From Myxococcales bacterium (GTDB lineage Bacteria; Myxococcota; Myxococcia; Myxococcales; Myxococcaceae), in contig JACPVI010000002.1 of the NCBI GenBank assembly GCA_016191815.1, positions 1 through 64,000 on the forward strand: DNA of 64,000 bases, read 5' to 3'. The stretch's first letter is position 1; every line of letters starts with the position of its first letter. A program made the translations under genes and the position numbers. Under the pieces are notes generated by a model, which saw only the letters and a list, made by a program, of their open reading frames with translations, had not been told where the DNA came from and did no database searches. Shown piece by piece: positions 18,233-26,374 of this stretch.

Positions 18233-18526
18233 ATGGAAATCCCGATGAACGCGGTGCCGCGGGTCCACTCCGAGGCAGGCGTTCAGCGGGTGGGGGGCAG
18301 GTTCATGGCTACCAGCCCTGACGACTCTCTGCACACCTTCGAGGACGAGGGGGGCCAGGTGTCGGAGGTGGCGGAGCGGATCATCGAGCTGGTCGACGGG
18401 CAGCGCACGTTGGCGCAGATAGTCGAAGTCCTCTGCGAGGAGTTCGAGGTGGAGCGGGAGCCGTGCGCTTCGGACACGGCGAGGTTCGTCGAGCTTTTGG
18501 TCGAAAAGAAGGTGCTGGTCCTGTGA
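18233..18526 (+). CDS. PqqD-like RiPP recognition protein
   Basis: A 97-residue stand-alone PqqD-fold protein (RiPP recognition element). The middle, EVAERIIELVDGQRTLAQIV, and the end, TARFVELLVEKKVLVL, match the usual LLDG-RT--EI and final FL--L---GLV helices. PqqD-like proteins bind the leader of a precursor peptide and bring it to modifying enzymes. The ATG at 18233 is preferred; TTG at 18212 would add seven residues. The only peptide I find that fits as its client is 6 kb downstream (24477-24638), followed by an HPr-kinase-like gene. PqqD/HprK-related pairs are known as a family association; function is unproven. Confidence 0.8.
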   Translation: MEIPMNAVPRVHSEAGVQRVGGRFMATSPDDSLHTFEDEGGQVSEVAERIIELVDGQRTLAQIVEVLCEEFEVEREPCASDTARFVELLVEKKVLVL

Positions 18527-18558
18527 GCTGAATGGGGACTGGTCCACCGGGAACGAAT

Positions 18559-18597: not shown

Positions 18598-21500
18598 ATG
18601 CATCGAGTCGGAACGAAGCTCTTCTGTGCCGGAGCGTTGCTGTGGATGGCCGGGTGCGACTGCGGGGGCCAAAAGCCGCGGGAGCTCCTCATCAGTTTCG
18701 TGAAGCCGACCGACGGCCAGCAGCTCACCGCCAACGACGACCTCGATTCGGCGGCGCCGGGGGTGCAGGTGGACGTGGAGGTGACCGTCACCGACAAGGA
18801 CGGGGCTCCGGTGACCTTGGAGAGCGCGGTCCTCGCGACGAAGCTCACCAGCGAGGTCGACTGGGTCGCGGGTCCGGAGGGGAGCCTCGAGGAGGGCAAG
18901 GCTACGTTCGCCAGGACCACCCTGCAGGCGCGCGCCAACCAGCTGCGGGTGACCGTGAGGGAGCCGGGCGCAGCGGAGGCGCAGCCGGTCACCATCACGG
19001 TGAACGTGGGCGCGGAGGGGCCGGCGCTGTCGATCGCCAGCCCGGCCGAAGGCCAGATCCTCAGAGCCGCCGACGATGCCAGCACTGCCGCGGGGTACCA
19101 GCTCAAGTTCGTGGTGGACGCGCCCGGGTTCGTGGGGGCGACGGGGAAGGTGCTGTGCGACCAGGTGTGCGGGCTGCCGCCGGTCTCTTTCAGCGTGGGA
19201 GCGGACGGCAAGGCGGTGGCGGAGGCAACCCTCACCGAAAGCGCATGCGACGCCGAGTCACCGGCTTGCTATGCGGTGGTGACCAACTCGGCGGGCGCCC
19301 CTTTCAGCTCGCAGGTCCGGAAGTTCACCGTCGATTCGGTGGCGCCGTCGGTGGAGATTTCCACGCCCGTCAAGCCGGTGGCCACGGCCACCTTCCGGAT
19401 CGAGGCGGCGGTGGGCTGCGCGGGCTCCGGAGCGACCGCCACGCTCACCTCTTCGGCTGGCGTCACCCTGACTGCCCCGGTGAGCGCGGGGATGGTGGGC
19501 TTCACGCTGAACGCCAGCTCCGGGCCCGGCACCTACAGCTACGTGTTGGCGGTGACGGATTCGTCCGGGAACAAGACCAGCCGGAACGTGGACGTGGTGG
19601 TGGCCTCGGCGGCGCCGGTGGTGAGCCTCGCCGCGCCGGCGACGGTGACCGCGGACGCCAACGGCGACTCGAGCGATGGAGTGCAGGCCTCGGTGTCGGC
19701 CACGCTCCCCGGAGAGACCGCCGCTACCGAGCTGCGCTACTGGACCAGCGTCACCGGAGCGCTGGGCAGCCCCAGAGGCGTCACCACGACTCAGTCCGGC
19801 GCGGATCGGGTGGCCACCTTCCTGGTGGACGTGGCCGAGGGCTCCAACAGCCTGAAGGTGTGCGCGACCAACATCGCGGGCCTGGAGACGTGTGAGTTCC
19901 GGAACCTGGCGGTGAGCACGGGCAGACCGCAGTGCCGGATCACCTCCCCGCTGGACAGCGAGTCGCGCAGCTTTGGCGGGTCGCTCTCGGTGACGGTGGA
20001 GTCGGTGCCGGGGAACGTGACGGTGACGGCGTACGACTCCAGCGGGCAGCCGACCGCCAGCGCTCCGACGCAGGTGGTGGCGGGGAGGGCGGTGGTTTCG
20101 CTGGCCTTGCCGGCGGATGGCGACTACCGGCTGCTCGCCTCATGCCCAGCAGGGGGAAAGAGCCAGCAGCTCCGCTACCGGAGGGACTCGGCGGCGCCGA
20201 CCATCAGCTCGGCGGTGGTGAGGGGGGACAGCTCGGGTCAGGGGACGTTGGGGCCGACCGTGGCGGACACCTCGGTGTTGCCGGGGCGGCAGGTGGTGCT
20301 GGACGTGACGACGGACCCTGGCGCACAGGTGCTGGTGAGCGGATGCAAGCTGGTGGGGGCGTCCTCGGCGACGGCGGACGCGACGGGGAAGGCGGAGGTG
20401 CGGGAGATCACCATCGGCGAGTCGGGCTCTTGCGCGCTGACGGTGAAGGCGCGGGACGCGGCAGGGAACGAGGGGACGACGCAGGTGCCGCTCACCCTGG
20501 CCTTCCAGCCGGCGCAGGTGGACATCGCGGATCCGGCCTTCGGGAGTGTGCTCGGCTCGGCCGATGGGACGCCGAGGTCGGGCGGGGGATTGACGGTACC
20601 GGTGACCGTGAGCATCGGCGCGCTCTCCGGGACGGGGAAGCTGAGGCTTCTGGCCAACGGGAATCAGGTCGGAGAAGCCGACGTGCAGGCGGGGGACTCG
20701 ACCAAGACGTTCGCCAAGGTGGACCTGGACGAGGGGGCGAATCTCCTCCAGGCCATCCTGGTGAACAGCGGCGGGCTGACCTCGTGCGCGATCGGGACGG
20801 TGTACGTGAAGACGAGCTCCAACACCGTGACGCTGAGCTCCCCGAGCACCGCGGCCCCGGTGACCTACAACATTTCGTTCGACCTCGACCGGAACACGCC
20901 CGGGCTGCAGCTTTCGCTCGGATATTCGCTGACCGGCGCCACCGCCGGGGTGCGCGTTGACATCTGCACCGACGTGCCATTGACCAAACAGGGGGCGCCC
21001 TGCGCCGACGGCTCCGGGTGGTTCGCGCTGGCAACGCAAGTGCCGCCGATAAACACCTCCTTCACTTACCCCGAGGGCAAGTACCGGCTGCGCGCGGTGG
21101 TGGTCGACGGCACCGGCACCTTCCCGCGATCCGCAGATGCGGTTCTGACGGTGGACACCGAGCGACCCCGGGTCGTGGCCCTGGCGCTGGTGGGCGATGC
21201 CAACGGAGACCGCAAGCTCAACCAGGCGGAGTCTCCCTCCGGAGATCCGCAACTCGTGGTGGCGACCGCAGGACTGCCCGACGGAGCAGCCGTGTCCGTG
21301 AAGAACAAGCTCCAGCGCGCGACGGTGTACGGAACCGGCACCGTCGCGAACGGGCTCGCCACCATCGGACTGGCCGCGCTGCCCAACAAGAATGAAGCCG
21401 ACTACGAGCTCGCCGTGGAACTGGTCGACGATGCCGGCAACCGCAACAAGCTCGATCCTCCGGCGGCGGCGCTGGACCCGGTCAACACCGATGCCTTCGC

Positions 21501-24486
21501 GAGCGTCCGGGTGGACCGCGTCCCGCCCGTCCTCCAGTACCTCTCCCCCGCTCCCAGCCGGACCGTGCTCGGGCCCGGAGACGACGCCGACGGCAACTCT
21601 GCCAACGGGACCTTCGTGCTCAGGGTGGTTCTCCAGACCAGCGCCGATGTGACCAGCGCCGCTGGAGTCCAGGTCACGCGCCAGGGGACGACTCCGAGGA
21701 CGTACGCGCCCGATGGCCAGCTTCAGGTGACCGATGACACCAACCTGACCGCGAGCGGCACGGCCACGTACGTCTTCGACGTGCAGGCGACCGATGAGGC
21801 TTTGAACGTGACCACCTTGGCTTCGCGTTCGATCACCGTCGATCTGCAGCCGCCGGCGATCACCATCACGGCTCCGACCGCGGGGACCTACAACACCAGC
21901 ACCCAGCAGGTAAATGTCGCGGTAACCGACGGCGAAGGGCAGGTGGTGAAATTCTTCACCACGCTGCAAGGTCTGCCCGAGTCGCAGATCGGGACCGCCA
22001 CGGTCAGCGGTGGGGTGGCTCAGGTCAGCCACTCGTTCGCGGACGGAAGCAACACGCTCCGCGCGGAGGTCACGGACGCCGCCGGCAACCTGGCCTCTGA
22101 CACCGAGGGCCCCGTGGTCATCGACACGCTGGGCTGCAGCGTGGTCTTCACCAGCCCGCAGAACAGCGTGGCGACCTTGAACATCGCCGACGATCTCACC
22201 CAGGTGACCCCCGGGCTCCAGTATCAGTTCAAGGGGGTCACTTCGGACTGCAAGGGACTGTTGGTGACCCTCTACAAGGGTTCGCCTGGGACGCAAGTCG
22301 GATCCGCGTTGGCGGACGGCACCACGGGTGCGTTCGTCTTCAACCCGGTGACGCTCGCCGACGCCGAGCAAGCCGTGTTCCGTGCGGAGATGGACGACGG
22401 AGTGGGGAACCTGACCTTCGACACGGTGAACGTGACGGTGGACATCACCCGGCCGACCATCAGCACGGTGTCGCCGGCCGGCCCCAGCTTGTTTGTGGTG
22501 GCTGACTCCAACATCAATCTGCGGCCCACGCCTGCGCCCGGCTACGTGGTGGACTTGGTGCCCGATGGCGACGCGCAGCTCGCCCTCTCGTTCGCCGCTG
22601 GAGGAGCCCTCAACGGCACCGCGCAGGTGTCGTACCGGGGAACGGCGCTCCTCAGCCCGGCGGTGGCGGTGGATGCGGACCCGAAGACCATCCCCCTTCC
22701 CAGCCTCACCCTGCTCCACAACACGTCAGGAACCTTGGAGATCAAGGTAACGGATCAAGCCGGCAATGACGCCACCTACACGATGGCGCTCACCATCGAC
22801 GTTCAGCCGCCGGCGGCCCCCGTCGCCGTGCTCACGATACCGGCGGCCGACGAGCGCAAGGCGAACGTCAACGTGACCTGGGGCACGGTGTACGACGACG
22901 GGAGCAACTCCAGCTCAGGGTCGCCCACCAACATCGATCTGCGCTGGACCACCGGCGTGGTGATGAGCAACGGCATCACCACCGAGAACGAGTTCTTCGA
23001 TACGACTACCGTCCGACAGGCCGGCGGCGGGTTGCTCGGCGGGTCCCTCACCTCGTACCAGCTGACGTCGCTTCCGCCTTTGGCGGCGTACTTCGTCAAG
23101 GTGCGCGCCATCGACGAGCGCGGAAATTACTCGCGGTTCGCCGGCGCCGCGCAGACGCGCAAGGACAACTTCTGGAGCACCGCGACGGTGACCAACCCGA
23201 CCACCCTGACGGGTTTTGCGATCGACATGGTCTCCAACGGCGACGTGAACGGAGACGGCACCGACGACATCCTCCTCAACGCCTATCTCACGCCGCCCGG
23301 CGGGGCGTTCATCTTGTACGGCAATTCGAATTTGGCGAGTGCGACGCTGCAGCAGCTCTCGCCGCCGAGCGCAGCTTCCCAGTGGTATGGGACCGACATC
23401 TCTGTTGGCAACGTCGGGGACGACACGAACGAGGGCAGACCGGACGTGCTGGTTTCAGCTCCCCTGTGGAGCGAGGGTGGCCTTTCGAATCAAGGCCGCA
23501 CCTTCCTGTACTTCGGGCGAAACGCCGCGACGATAGACGTCACGTCGTACGTCGAATTCCGAGGCGCCGGCGCCAATAGCCAACTCGGGCGCAACCTCGC
23601 CGCGATTGGAGATACGAATGGTGATGGAATCGGCGAGTTGATGTTTTCAGCCGCTCCCGAAAACGGCGGGCAGGGCCGCATCTACATGTTCTACGGGCGC
23701 ACCAAGGCTGCTTGGCTTGCGCTCGCGTCGTCCGGATACGTCGACGTGTCACCGACGACGTGCACCACGGCGAACCAGTGCAGGATTCTCGACGGGCCGC
23801 TACCAGTCGACACCGCCGCTCCGAGCGGGAACCAATATGGTCGCTTGCGCGGCTACTCCTACCTGGGCGACTTGGACGGGGACGCACATGGCGATTTCAC
23901 GACGGCTACCTCGAAGGAGGTCTTGAACAAGGTCTTCCTCTTCTCCGGCCAGACGGTAAAGAACAAGGCGACGAGCGTTCCCGCGACCGACGCCATTCAG
24001 GTGCTCACTCAGGGGCCGAATGCCGGCACCTCGCTCAACGGATTCGGCGGGCGGGTGTTGAGCAACGTGAATCTCGTCGGAGGTGCGGGGAAGGACCTTG
24101 TCTCTAATCAGGTGGTGCAAAACCGGGTGCATCTCTTCGCGGATGGGACCGCGTCAGGCTACGCGACGCCGCCCCTCACCATCAGCGGTGCGCGAGGATT
24201 CGGCTACGCGATCGCCGCGGGCGATCTGAATGCGGACGGTAAGCTCGACTTGATTGCCGGGGAGACCACGACTAGCAATTGCTCGGCCTGGGTGCTGTAC
24301 AACCGAGGGGTCTCCGGATCCGAATTCGACACCTCACCGGGCGGGAGCTTTGCCCAGTCGCGCTTGACCGCTCCGACGCGCCTCGGTATTAGCGTAGTCG
24401 TTGGGGATTACAACGGCGATGGCAAACCTGATCTGGCGGCGGGCGACAACCTGGATGGCCGAGGAAAGGTGACCCTATGGTACTGA
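18598..24486 (+). CDS. Giant lipoprotein with Ig-like domains and FG-GAP repeats
   Basis: At 1962 residues the largest protein here. The ATG at 18598 gives a lipoprotein signal peptide with Cys20 in LLWMAGCDCGG; an ATG at 18532 would bury it. Residues 30-1400 are a chain of Ig-like beta-sandwich modules (repeated endings such as VDSVAPSVEISTP, VDTERPRVVAL, VDLQPPAITITAP). About 1405-1520 resembles a fibronectin type III module. Residues 1520-1962 hold six FG-GAP repeats with calcium loops (DVNGDGTDD, DTNGDGIGE, DLNADGKLD, DYNGDGKPD), probably a beta-propeller. Such proteins are surface adhesins or binding platforms. Its last 10 bases overlap the start of the small peptide gene. Confidence 0.9.
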   Translation: MHRVGTKLFCAGALLWMAGCDCGGQKPRELLISFVKPTDGQQLTANDDLDSAAPGVQVDVEVTVTDKDGAPVTLESAVLATKLTSEVDWVAGPEGSLEEGKATFARTTLQARANQLRVTVREPGAAEAQPVTITVNVGAEGPALSIASPAEGQILRAADDASTAAGYQLKFVVDAPGFVGATGKVLCDQVCGLPPVSFSVGADGKAVAEATLTESACDAESPACYAVVTNSAGAPFSSQVRKFTVDSVAPSVEISTPVKPVATATFRIEAAVGCAGSGATATLTSSAGVTLTAPVSAGMVGFTLNASSGPGTYSYVLAVTDSSGNKTSRNVDVVVASAAPVVSLAAPATVTADANGDSSDGVQASVSATLPGETAATELRYWTSVTGALGSPRGVTTTQSGADRVATFLVDVAEGSNSLKVCATNIAGLETCEFRNLAVSTGRPQCRITSPLDSESRSFGGSLSVTVESVPGNVTVTAYDSSGQPTASAPTQVVAGRAVVSLALPADGDYRLLASCPAGGKSQQLRYRRDSAAPTISSAVVRGDSSGQGTLGPTVADTSVLPGRQVVLDVTTDPGAQVLVSGCKLVGASSATADATGKAEVREITIGESGSCALTVKARDAAGNEGTTQVPLTLAFQPAQVDIADPAFGSVLGSADGTPRSGGGLTVPVTVSIGALSGTGKLRLLANGNQVGEADVQAGDSTKTFAKVDLDEGANLLQAILVNSGGLTSCAIGTVYVKTSSNTVTLSSPSTAAPVTYNISFDLDRNTPGLQLSLGYSLTGATAGVRVDICTDVPLTKQGAPCADGSGWFALATQVPPINTSFTYPEGKYRLRAVVVDGTGTFPRSADAVLTVDTERPRVVALALVGDANGDRKLNQAESPSGDPQLVVATAGLPDGAAVSVKNKLQRATVYGTGTVANGLATIGLAALPNKNEADYELAVELVDDAGNRNKLDPPAAALDPVNTDAFASVRVDRVPPVLQYLSPAPSRTVLGPGDDADGNSANGTFVLRVVLQTSADVTSAAGVQVTRQGTTPRTYAPDGQLQVTDDTNLTASGTATYVFDVQATDEALNVTTLASRSITVDLQPPAITITAPTAGTYNTSTQQVNVAVTDGEGQVVKFFTTLQGLPESQIGTATVSGGVAQVSHSFADGSNTLRAEVTDAAGNLASDTEGPVVIDTLGCSVVFTSPQNSVATLNIADDLTQVTPGLQYQFKGVTSDCKGLLVTLYKGSPGTQVGSALADGTTGAFVFNPVTLADAEQAVFRAEMDDGVGNLTFDTVNVTVDITRPTISTVSPAGPSLFVVADSNINLRPTPAPGYVVDLVPDGDAQLALSFAAGGALNGTAQVSYRGTALLSPAVAVDADPKTIPLPSLTLLHNTSGTLEIKVTDQAGNDATYTMALTIDVQPPAAPVAVLTIPAADERKANVNVTWGTVYDDGSNSSSGSPTNIDLRWTTGVVMSNGITTENEFFDTTTVRQAGGGLLGGSLTSYQLTSLPPLAAYFVKVRAIDERGNYSRFAGAAQTRKDNFWSTATVTNPTTLTGFAIDMVSNGDVNGDGTDDILLNAYLTPPGGAFILYGNSNLASATLQQLSPPSAASQWYGTDISVGNVGDDTNEGRPDVLVSAPLWSEGGLSNQGRTFLYFGRNAATIDVTSYVEFRGAGANSQLGRNLAAIGDTNGDGIGELMFSAAPENGGQGRIYMFYGRTKAAWLALASSGYVDVSPTTCTTANQCRILDGPLPVDTAAPSGNQYGRLRGYSYLGDLDGDAHGDFTTATSKEVLNKVFLFSGQTVKNKATSVPATDAIQVLTQGPNAGTSLNGFGGRVLSNVNLVGGAGKDLVSNQVVQNRVHLFADGTASGYATPPLTISGARGFGYAIAAGDLNADGKLDLIAGETTTSNCSAWVLYNRGVSGSEFDTSPGGSFAQSRLTAPTRLGISVVVGDYNGDGKPDLAAGDNLDGRGKVTLWY

Positions 24487-24638
24487 AGGCTCCGCTCCGT
24501 AAGCCTCGGCGTCCCTACCGCGCGCCGCGTGTCCGCTCACAGAAGCTCCTTGTGCCGAATCTCTTCGACCACAGCCCGACTTGCGGCGGAGGTACGTACT
24601 ACGACTCCGGCTGTGACTGCTGCCTGCCCGATCCCTGA
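24477..24638 (+). CDS. Candidate RiPP precursor peptide, 53 residues
   Basis: A short gene whose ATG lies inside the end of the lipoprotein gene (ATGGTACTGA, 24477-24486). The first half is basic: KPRRPYRAPRVR at residues 9-20, containing Tyr14-x-x-Pro17-x-Val19, the YxxPxL/V pattern that PqqD-like domains bind in lasso-peptide leaders. The last third is very different: PTCGGGTYYDSGCDCC with Cys36, Cys46, Cys48 and Cys49, then LPDP. Basic leader plus Gly/Cys/Tyr core, next to a PqqD-like gene, a kinase, a protease and an acetyltransferase domain, is how peptide natural-product precursors look. The product class is unknown; no cyclase is visible. Confidence 0.65.
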   Translation: MVLKAPLRKPRRPYRAPRVRSQKLLVPNLFDHSPTCGGGTYYDSGCDCCLPDP

Positions 24639-24652
24639 TCAAGACTTGATCA
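24636..24652. promoter_or_regulatory. Perfect palindrome at the peptide/kinase boundary
   Basis: TGATCAAG-A-CTTGATCA is a perfect 8-bp inverted repeat around one base. It begins at the TGA stop of the peptide gene and covers the proposed TTG start of the kinase gene (24646). The centre is too tight for a good hairpin, so a dimeric DNA-binding protein is more plausible than RNA structure. Chance cannot be excluded. Confidence 0.35.
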
Positions 24653-25413
24653 GGAAACTCCGAACGGGGACCTGGGCGGCCTCGGTGACCGAAGAGATCG
24701 AACGCCTGGCCGCCCCGCGCTGTCTCCTCGGGCCGTTCGCGGCCTGTCCTTCCACGTTCGACGAACTGAGGATCGAACCGGCGGGGGAGTTTGCCGGCGC
24801 GGAGCTACCAATCGACGGCCTGGAGTCACGGCTTGGCTCCTACCGGGTGGAGGGCGATCGGATCCTCGTGCGGATCATCGATGATCCTCTCGCCGCCGAG
24901 GCGGCGCTTCGCATCCTCTGGCACGTCGCCATCGCCCGGCAAGGCGGCGTCCTCGTACATGCCAGCGGCGTACTCTTCGGCGAGGAAGGCGTCGTCGCCC
25001 TCGGCCCCAGCGGAGCCGGAAAGTCCACCTTTGCCGCCCTCTGCACCGCCGCTGGCGGGCGCCTCATGTCCGACGAAATCATCGCCCTCTACCCCGACGG
25101 CTCCGCCCACGGCACCCCCTTCCGCTCCGACAACCCCGCCCCCGGCTGCCCCGACCGCGTCAGACTCCGCTCCCTCTTCCTCCTCGAAAAAGGCGGCGAG
25201 GAACGCCTCTCCCCCGTCGAGCCGTCCGAGGCCATCGCCGCCCTCCTCTCCCAGTGCTTCCGCTCCAACGACGGCGAGCTCTCCGGCGCGGAGACGATGA
25301 AGCGGCTTGCTCCGCTGATCGACGACCCCGGCGTCCATAGGCTCCGCTTCCGCAAGCACCTCGACGCCGGCCGGTTCGTCAAGGAGTGGCTCGGTGCCCC
25401 TCTCCGCCGCTGA
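24646..25413 (+). CDS. HPr kinase-like protein
   Basis: A 255-residue protein with a HprK-type P-loop: GGVLVHASGVL, then LGPSGAGKST with Lys126, then MSDEIIALYPDG and GTPF. It is shorter than true HPr kinase/phosphorylase, which has an extra N-terminal domain, and there is no PTS gene nearby. Relatives occur beside PqqD-like genes and, in some lasso-peptide clusters, phosphorylate the precursor peptide. The open frame extends to a GTG at 24529, but that would run through the peptide gene; TTG at 24646, 7 nt after the peptide stop, fits better (GTG at 24685 is another option). Proposed role: ATP-dependent modification of the peptide; inference. Confidence 0.75.
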   Translation: MIRKLRTGTWAASVTEEIERLAAPRCLLGPFAACPSTFDELRIEPAGEFAGAELPIDGLESRLGSYRVEGDRILVRIIDDPLAAEAALRILWHVAIARQGGVLVHASGVLFGEEGVVALGPSGAGKSTFAALCTAAGGRLMSDEIIALYPDGSAHGTPFRSDNPAPGCPDRVRLRSLFLLEKGGEERLSPVEPSEAIAALLSQCFRSNDGELSGAETMKRLAPLIDDPGVHRLRFRKHLDAGRFVKEWLGAPLRR

Positions 25414-26374
25414 GCTGGCCGATCTGCTCGAGGCCCGCCCACCCGGAAGCAGACTCTGGGTCCGCGCCTCCGGCCGGAGCATGGTCCCTTTCCTCCGCTC
25501 CGGCGACTCGCTTCAAGTCCTCCGCTGCGGCGCCGAGCAACTCGCCCGCGGCGACGTCGCCGTCGTCCGCCGCGCCCGCTCCTCGCTCGTCGTGCACCTG
25601 GTCGTCCAGCAGCACCCCCTGCGCACCGCCACCTTCCGCGGCCAGCTCGACCCCGAAGGCCAGCCCCTCGGCCGAGTCATTCGCGTCCGCCGCGGGCGCC
25701 TCTCCCTACCGCTCCCCCCGCTGTCACGCCCAGCCGTTTGGCTCCTCCATCGCGCCACCGTCGCCGCCGCCCAGGGCGCCCCTCGAAGGGCCCTCCTCCT
25801 GCTCCGAGATGCCCTCTCCTCCGCGGCCACGCTCCCGCTTCGCCGCGCCCTCGCCGGAGAGCTGACTATTCGGCGCCTCGGCCCCGACGACTTCGATCAG
25901 GCCAACCTCTACCTCGGCGACCACCTGCCCCAGGCCGGCACCCTCGAGAACCACCGCACCGGCTTCGGCGCTTTCGGCCGCTCCGGCCGGCTCCTGGGCG
26001 TGGCCCTCATCCCCACGGGGAACCCGCCCTTCGTCCGCCACCTGCACGTCTCCCGCCTCGCCGCCGGAATGCGCGTCTCCGAACAGCTCGCCACCGCAGC
26101 CTGCGAGTGGGCCCGCTGCGAAGGCCACTCCGAGCTCGCCGCCGAAGTGCCCGAGCGCGAATCGGCACTCATCCACTCGCTCCTCTCGATTGGCTTCCAG
26201 CGCGAATCGGGGAAGCACCGGCCTCCCGAAACGCCGGGCCCCCCGACACCGCTCGGGGCGAGCGGGGCCCCATCTGGGCCCGACTCGGGGTCGATGGACC
26301 CGCGCCGGCACGCCGCGGGAGAGAGCATCAGGCTGGTCCGGAAAACCGTTGCGCCCGCGCACGCGGGCGGGTGA
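25394..26374 (+). CDS. S24/S26-like peptidase fused to GNAT acetyltransferase-like domain
   Basis: A 326-residue two-domain protein. Residues 1-100 resemble signal-peptidase/LexA-type serine proteases: nucleophile Ser29 in RASGRSMVPFLRSGDS, then LARGDVAVVRR and VVHLVV. The general-base Lys expected there is replaced by His68, as in other peptide-cluster S24/S26-like proteins, so activity is uncertain. Residues about 155-280 look like GNAT: LTIRRLGPDDF, LGVALIPTG, AGMRVSEQLATAACEWAR, and ALIHSLLSIGF. A Pro/Gly insert follows, then the final strand SIRLVRKTV. The start lies 20 nt inside the kinase gene, so both are in one operon. Proposed role: leader removal and acetylation; inference. Confidence 0.7.
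   Translation: MPLSAAELADLLEARPPGSRLWVRASGRSMVPFLRSGDSLQVLRCGAEQLARGDVAVVRRARSSLVVHLVVQQHPLRTATFRGQLDPEGQPLGRVIRVRRGRLSLPLPPLSRPAVWLLHRATVAAAQGAPRRALLLLRDALSSAATLPLRRALAGELTIRRLGPDDFDQANLYLGDHLPQAGTLENHRTGFGAFGRSGRLLGVALIPTGNPPFVRHLHVSRLAAGMRVSEQLATAACEWARCEGHSELAAEVPERESALIHSLLSIGFQRESGKHRPPETPGPPTPLGASGAPSGPDSGSMDPRRHAAGESIRLVRKTVAPAHAGG

Follow-up and report, generated by a model that had tools for sequence, protein, structure and literature searches.

Linear polyphosphorylated peptides (LPP), made by the lpp pathway of Paenibacillus and described by their authors as restricted to Bacillota (Popov et al. 2026, PMC13381572), are the closest known counterpart of the locus presented here. In this pathway, the RRE protein LppB binds a YxxP motif in the leader, and LppK adds several phosphates to Ser3 of the core, which stands 18 residues after the leader Tyr (Tyr+18); a Thr in place of Ser3 was not phosphorylated. 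LppS, with its S29/H68/D93, cuts after residue -1 with the assistance of LppB, and the extended leader consensus is YxxPxVLxHQxIxFETxxS (PMC13381572). Paeninodin-type lasso peptides with an HprK kinase share a [Y/W]xxP leader, a discrete RRE and an HprK-like kinase with our locus. In the open-access literature, no report of such a system in myxobacteria was found.

The window, by which we mean the whole stretch of 64,000 nucleotides that was analysed, comes from a Myxococcales bacterium. Its core cassette consists of an RRE, a giant Ig/FG-GAP lipoprotein, a peptide, an HprK-like kinase and an archaeal-type signal-peptidase-like protein (Table 1). In the family, the conserved order of this cassette, here called type 1, is ETF beta, ETF alpha, RRE, lipoprotein, peptide, HprK-like protein and S26-like protein with or without a GNAT domain. 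Type 1 was assigned to Myxococcaceae/Archangium by named genome records, including those of Archangium violaceum and A. lansinium. The signal-peptidase-like protein of the window, encoded by the gene after the kinase and missed in the earlier note on this DNA, is fused to an acetyltransferase. The lipoprotein gene of 5.9 kb encodes a signal peptide with a lipobox (..LWMAGC), Ig-like repeats and a C-terminal FG-GAP propeller, and homologues of it were found at 33 loci, 28 of which have the lipobox. The mature lipoproteins often begin with C-x-C (GCNCG, GCDCG), having a second Cys two residues past the lipidated one (window 18598-18700; homologues at L043-L083). As the earlier note had described, a 53-residue ORF overlaps the end of the lipoprotein gene, sharing 10 nt with the 3' end of the lipoprotein ORF and having its ATG inside the final codons, and its stop lies 7 nt upstream of the in-frame TTG of the HprK-like ORF, approximately where the alignments of HprK-like homologues begin. 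The YxxPxV motif and the four Cys (Cys36, Cys46, Cys48 and Cys49) of the ORF are also present as claimed there.

Table 1. Features of the peptide cassette in the window.
Feature	Position	Strand	Basis and remarks
PqqD-like discrete RRE, predicted YxxP-leader binder	18245..18526 (start uncertain; ORF opens at TTG 18212)	+	PF05402, 1.5e-11 and 3e-12
Giant surface lipoprotein	18598..24486 (ORF opens at 18532; 18598 likely start)	+	Pfam FG-GAP 6.4e-19, Big_13 8e-15
Shine-Dalgarno-like, purine-rich AGGAAAGG	24462..24469	+	7 nt upstream of ATG; from sequence
Precursor peptide gene, 53 aa	24477..24638	+	ATG start; translation MVLKAPLRKPRRPYRAPRVRSQKLLVPNLFDHSPTCGGGTYYDSGCDCCLPDP
Leader motif Y14-R-A-P17-R-V19, predicted RRE-binding site	24516..24533	+	Both Tyr and Pro kept without exception in homologues; lasso and LPP leaders carry this motif too (PMC13381572)
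Predicted core, residues 31-53 (DHSPTCGGGTYYDSGCDCCLPDP)	24567..24635	+	Inferred boundary, may be one residue earlier; Ser33 at Tyr+19 aligned to LPP Ser3
Ser33, predicted phospho-acceptor	24573..24575	+	Ser/Thr at Tyr+18 or +19 in 20/20 type-1 homologues
HprK-like kinase (TTG start)	24646..25413	+	TIGR04352 1.2e-9, under cut-off
Archaeal-type (S26B-like) signal-peptidase-like domain fused to GNAT domain; candidate leader peptidase	25394..26374	+	Weak Pfam S24 and NCBIfam sigpep_I_arch

The 53-residue ORF is a genuine conserved gene and a member of a myxobacterial family of peptide precursors. When relatives were searched for with the HprK-like protein, a match was obtained in 93 of the 145 genomes of the order, and the closer orthologues were all in genomes of the same family. 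The DNA upstream of the HprK-like gene in these relatives contained a short ORF whose leader reads KKxYxPPxVRSEKILVPDLF and whose Cys tail varies, and both the peptides and their flanking genes could be aligned with counterparts in other genera. An equivalent short ORF, with a YxxP leader and at least two Cys, was present at the 3' end of the lipoprotein gene at all 30 related loci in which this end was readable, against a chance expectation of 0.11 estimated from the density elsewhere in a control scan; since the YxxP/Cys pattern was framed after the family had been seen, this contrast is descriptive. Homologous peptides beside HprK-like genes in related genomes, which the earlier note had proposed to search for and the lack of which it had named as refuting its reading, thus do exist. 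In 13 close homologues, Tyr14, Pro17, Cys36 and Cys46 are invariant; of the four Cys, only these two are conserved in this set, Cys48 and Cys49 being unshared and private to the window peptide among its type-1 relatives. The tails vary among the homologues and the N-terminal stretch drifts, and the tail CGGGTYYDSGCDCC of the window peptide is unshared. The genus of the window is represented by one genome, so that this exact peptide had no close sisters with which to compare it. Purifying selection was evident in one genus group, with a pN/pS of 0.14 over the full gene and 0.05 within the core; the values in other genus groups reached 0.5 (type 1) and 0.83 (type 2), and in the type-2 sets constraint was strongest in the YxxP region. 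The ORF is short, Pfam and NCBIfam had no match to it or its relatives, and tblastn found no match to it in plasmids. The first two points would suit a chance ORF without translation. However, the syntenic homologues, the purifying selection and the ribosome-binding site refute this explanation for the family and make its probability negligible.

The same kind of cassette occurs again in this genome. A second, paralogous one on another contig (C27 of G000; L005, 3899-8957, minus strand) contains an RRE, a secreted protein of 1024 aa with a PQQ-type propeller, a YSPPAIV...C...C peptide with two Cys and an HprK-like kinase; no S26 gene was seen at this cassette. In other genera, such type-2 cassettes are ordered S26, RRE, large secreted protein, peptide and HprK, and similar arrangements were found in more distant Myxococcota. 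In the genera g4, g12, g25 and g26, HprK does not adjoin the peptide, and the vicinity showed no S26 gene. The cassette lacks a conserved exporter. An EamA/DMT-like transporter (L043, 3271-4314; equivalents in 20 loci), a possible exporter, is often near the cassette, even without kinase and S26, and was not found in the window. A Ca2+/H+ antiporter-like gene (PF01699; 26400-27537) lies directly downstream in the window, and is near the cassette in several relatives too.

The earlier note had combined the leader and the Cys-rich tail with a PqqD-like RRE protein. The RRE is real, and its gene is not adjacent to that of the peptide but 6 kb upstream, before the lipoprotein gene. It is the best conserved part of the cassette, its orthologues within the family reaching 73% identity. 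In a profile search, its closest solved relative was the lasso RRE TbiB1 (5v1u, 5.7e-8), followed by PqqD proteins, PbaB1 (9x90, 3.8e-5) and LppB (9x8z, 0.1). Its Asp77 stands four residues before the invariant Phe81, a spacing as in D70/F74 of LppB, where the Asp binds the leader Tyr (PMC13381572). The conserved equivalents in every readable related locus, the YxxP motif and this RRE support the prediction that the ORF encodes a RiPP precursor with a PqqD-binding leader.

A leader with YxxPxV and a lasso-type RRE could also belong to a lasso peptide precursor, and an Asp would stand at position 8 if the core started at Cys36. The nearest relatives of the RRE outside the phylum are in lasso-type clusters of Gemmatimonadetes and Acidobacteria MAGs (L094 and L096), and L096 also has an HprK-like gene. 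However, no cyclase or B2 peptidase was found at any of the myxobacterial loci, and the tails of the homologues have no Asp/Glu in common at ring position 7-9, in which they differ from the paeninodin-type peptides as well. Neither the scanned neighbours in the window nor the conserved neighbours included an asparagine-synthetase-like cyclase, and no macrolactam cyclase was among the former. The lasso B2 model (PF13471) reached 22.2 bits in the genome of the window, below its cut-off of 26 and on another contig, and had no match in G046, G085 and G091, three genomes that carry the peptide. With B2 and cyclase missing at these loci, a lasso identity was rejected, and we regard it as very improbable.

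In the alignment of HprK-like proteins, His104, the Walker A motif GxSGxGK[ST] and Asp142-Glu143 are invariant. HPr kinase has Asp-Asp at the place of this Asp-Glu. The AlphaFold model of the kinase (pLDDT 91) has a PEPCK fold (Z 12.9, 4.3 A over 222 residues); the best 50 structural matches were all PEPCK, the fold of which is common to HprK, and HprK chains were absent among these 50. HPrK 1jb1 was matched by the sequence profile of the kinase only at E 0.14. The P-loop region scored 37.6 bits with TIGR04352 (HprK-related kinase A) against a curated cut-off of 200, and membership of that family was rejected. For the S26-like protein, the archaeal-type model scored better of two signal-peptidase models, and because both scores are weak, the assignment rests on motifs. 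Ser28, His67 and Asp85 were invariant in the seven aligned rows, and the Ser/His/Asp triad is kept across a set of 45 loci except for one change of Ser to Cys. The GNAT half, which filled the list of the fold search, resembles the RimI/Naa10 N-terminal acetyltransferases (Z 16), a common fold. At L115 (3357-4694), an HprK-like kinase and an S26-like domain are fused into one protein, which has a Cys (GTCMWP) at the expected catalytic Ser of the S26-like domain.

The earlier note could not name the class of RiPP; the fit to a RiPP is supported, and by analogy the peptide can be classed as LPP-like (PMC13381572). Both systems have a discrete RRE, a YxxPxV precursor with a variable tail, an HprK-like kinase, a Ser near Tyr+18 and a SipW-like Ser/His/Asp peptidase (S28/H67/D85 here), without cyclase or B2. 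However, the hosts are Myxococcota instead of Bacillota, and the myxobacterial RRE is closer to TbiB1 than to LppB by the profile search ranking. A giant Ig/propeller lipoprotein stands between RRE and precursor here, a GNAT domain is fused to the peptidase, the tail is rich in Cys, and the Ser is at Tyr+19 in the window peptide. An MsbA-like exporter and an NTP transferase are absent here among the conserved neighbours and the scanned window genes. The myxobacterial system is conserved across a family, whereas LPP is patchy. Compared with the LPP leader consensus, the type-1 peptide of the window has only Y, P and V, with the Ser one residue further, and the type-2 paralogues have Y, P, V/I, L and Q with the Ser at the exact spacing. 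By this comparison, the myxobacterial system probably works like LPP, and we did not file it as LPP because it lacks the exporter and NTP transferase, its RRE is no close relative of LppB and its leaders match only in part.

Among type-1 peptides, 16 of 20 have a Ser/Thr, the putative phospho-acceptor, at Tyr+19 and the other four at Tyr+18; a Ser is found at exactly Tyr+18, the offset of LPP Ser3, in 14 of 15 type-2 peptides, after an A-L-A motif. These counts are not independent, as the type-1 and type-2 sequences share ancestry. In distant families, offsets between +18 and +20 are found again. On the analogy with LPP, we consider it fairly probable that the ORF is the precursor of a linear, phosphorylated, Cys-containing peptide, which would be docked by the RRE, phosphorylated and trimmed of its leader. 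Tyr14-x-x-Pro17 would be the docking site of the RRE on the leader, and the beginning of the core would offer a Ser/Thr, here Ser33, for phosphorylation by the HprK-like kinase. Cleavage near residue 30 by the signal-peptidase-like protein would take off the leader, after which the new N-terminus may be acetylated by the fused GNAT domain. We infer docking, phosphorylation and cleavage, and possibly acetylation, from the LPP pathway with the same four working parts and from the recurring offsets; the core boundary of the window peptide and its core masses, an [M+H]+ near 2362.8 for residues 31-53 (reduced) or 2509.9 for residues 30-53, with phosphate steps of 79.97 Da, are predictions. With no cyclase at the locus, the product would be linear, disulfides being the one possible exception. 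Once mature, it probably acts on the giant outer-surface lipoprotein of the same operon or together with it; gene order suggests this link, and the lipoprotein might carry, bind or sense the peptide. The fusion of HprK and S26 at L115 and the presence of peptide, HprK and S26 in the paralogous type-2 cassettes count for this pathway. Against it count the Thr in some homologues, whereas LppK did not phosphorylate a Thr replacing Ser3, the type-1 Ser usually standing one position beyond that of LPP when counted from Tyr, the Asp-Glu of the kinase, the separation of kinase and peptide in the four genera mentioned above, and the lack of a conserved exporter.

It is possible that the peptide is modified mainly on its Cys, as thioether, disulfide or otherwise, by enzymes encoded elsewhere, with kinase and peptidase as accessories. 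Cys are the most conserved residues of the tails, their number reaching six in type-3 tails, and at L110 YxxP peptides with HprK and S26 adjoin a radical SAM/SPASM gene. However, no other modifying enzyme is conserved at the type-1 loci, the neighbours scanned in the window within about 12 kb being housekeeping or unrelated genes, and we think this explanation unlikely. The L110 peptides belong to another YxxP precursor family found before HprK-like genes in other Myxococcota (L110, L144, L145, L149, L150, L153, L154 and L120), with tails like GICKGGLGAGPLGPGCSGGPSGCMGGGS; the radical SAM/SPASM gene of L110 lies between PqqD and peptide. These related YxxP/Cys peptides are shared with the radical SAM/SPASM RiPPs, whereas the type-1 cassette has no radical SAM gene and the L110-type tails have no Ser/Thr at Tyr+18/19. 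A lipidation site at the lipobox-like LLAC of type-3 peptides was considered and dropped, there being no hydrophobic signal stretch before it.

The peptide could instead be an unmodified small Cys-rich protein that serves the giant lipoprotein as a structural partner or as a chaperone. In some relatives the kinase has moved away, and there the peptide ORF stays with RRE and lipoprotein, still directly 3' of the lipoprotein gene. However, the contrast between leader and tail, the YxxP motif and the co-occurrence with an RRE are hallmarks of RiPPs, and genes for the kinase and S26 are found again in paralogous cassettes and in distant ones, which makes an unmodified partner quite unlikely.

Routine annotation passes over genes as short as these, and no family model covers them, so that they are invisible in current genome mining. 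If our reading as a phosphorylated precursor is true, phosphopeptide-type RiPPs, described as restricted to Bacillota, reach Myxococcota, and culturable Archangium and Myxococcus relatives make the system directly testable. The function of LPP was left open by the authors who described them (PMC13381572). The pairing of the peptide with a giant surface lipoprotein at every readable locus would give a concrete lead on what it does, and in Myxococcota such peptides look like ancient and stable parts of the genome rather than mobile weapons.
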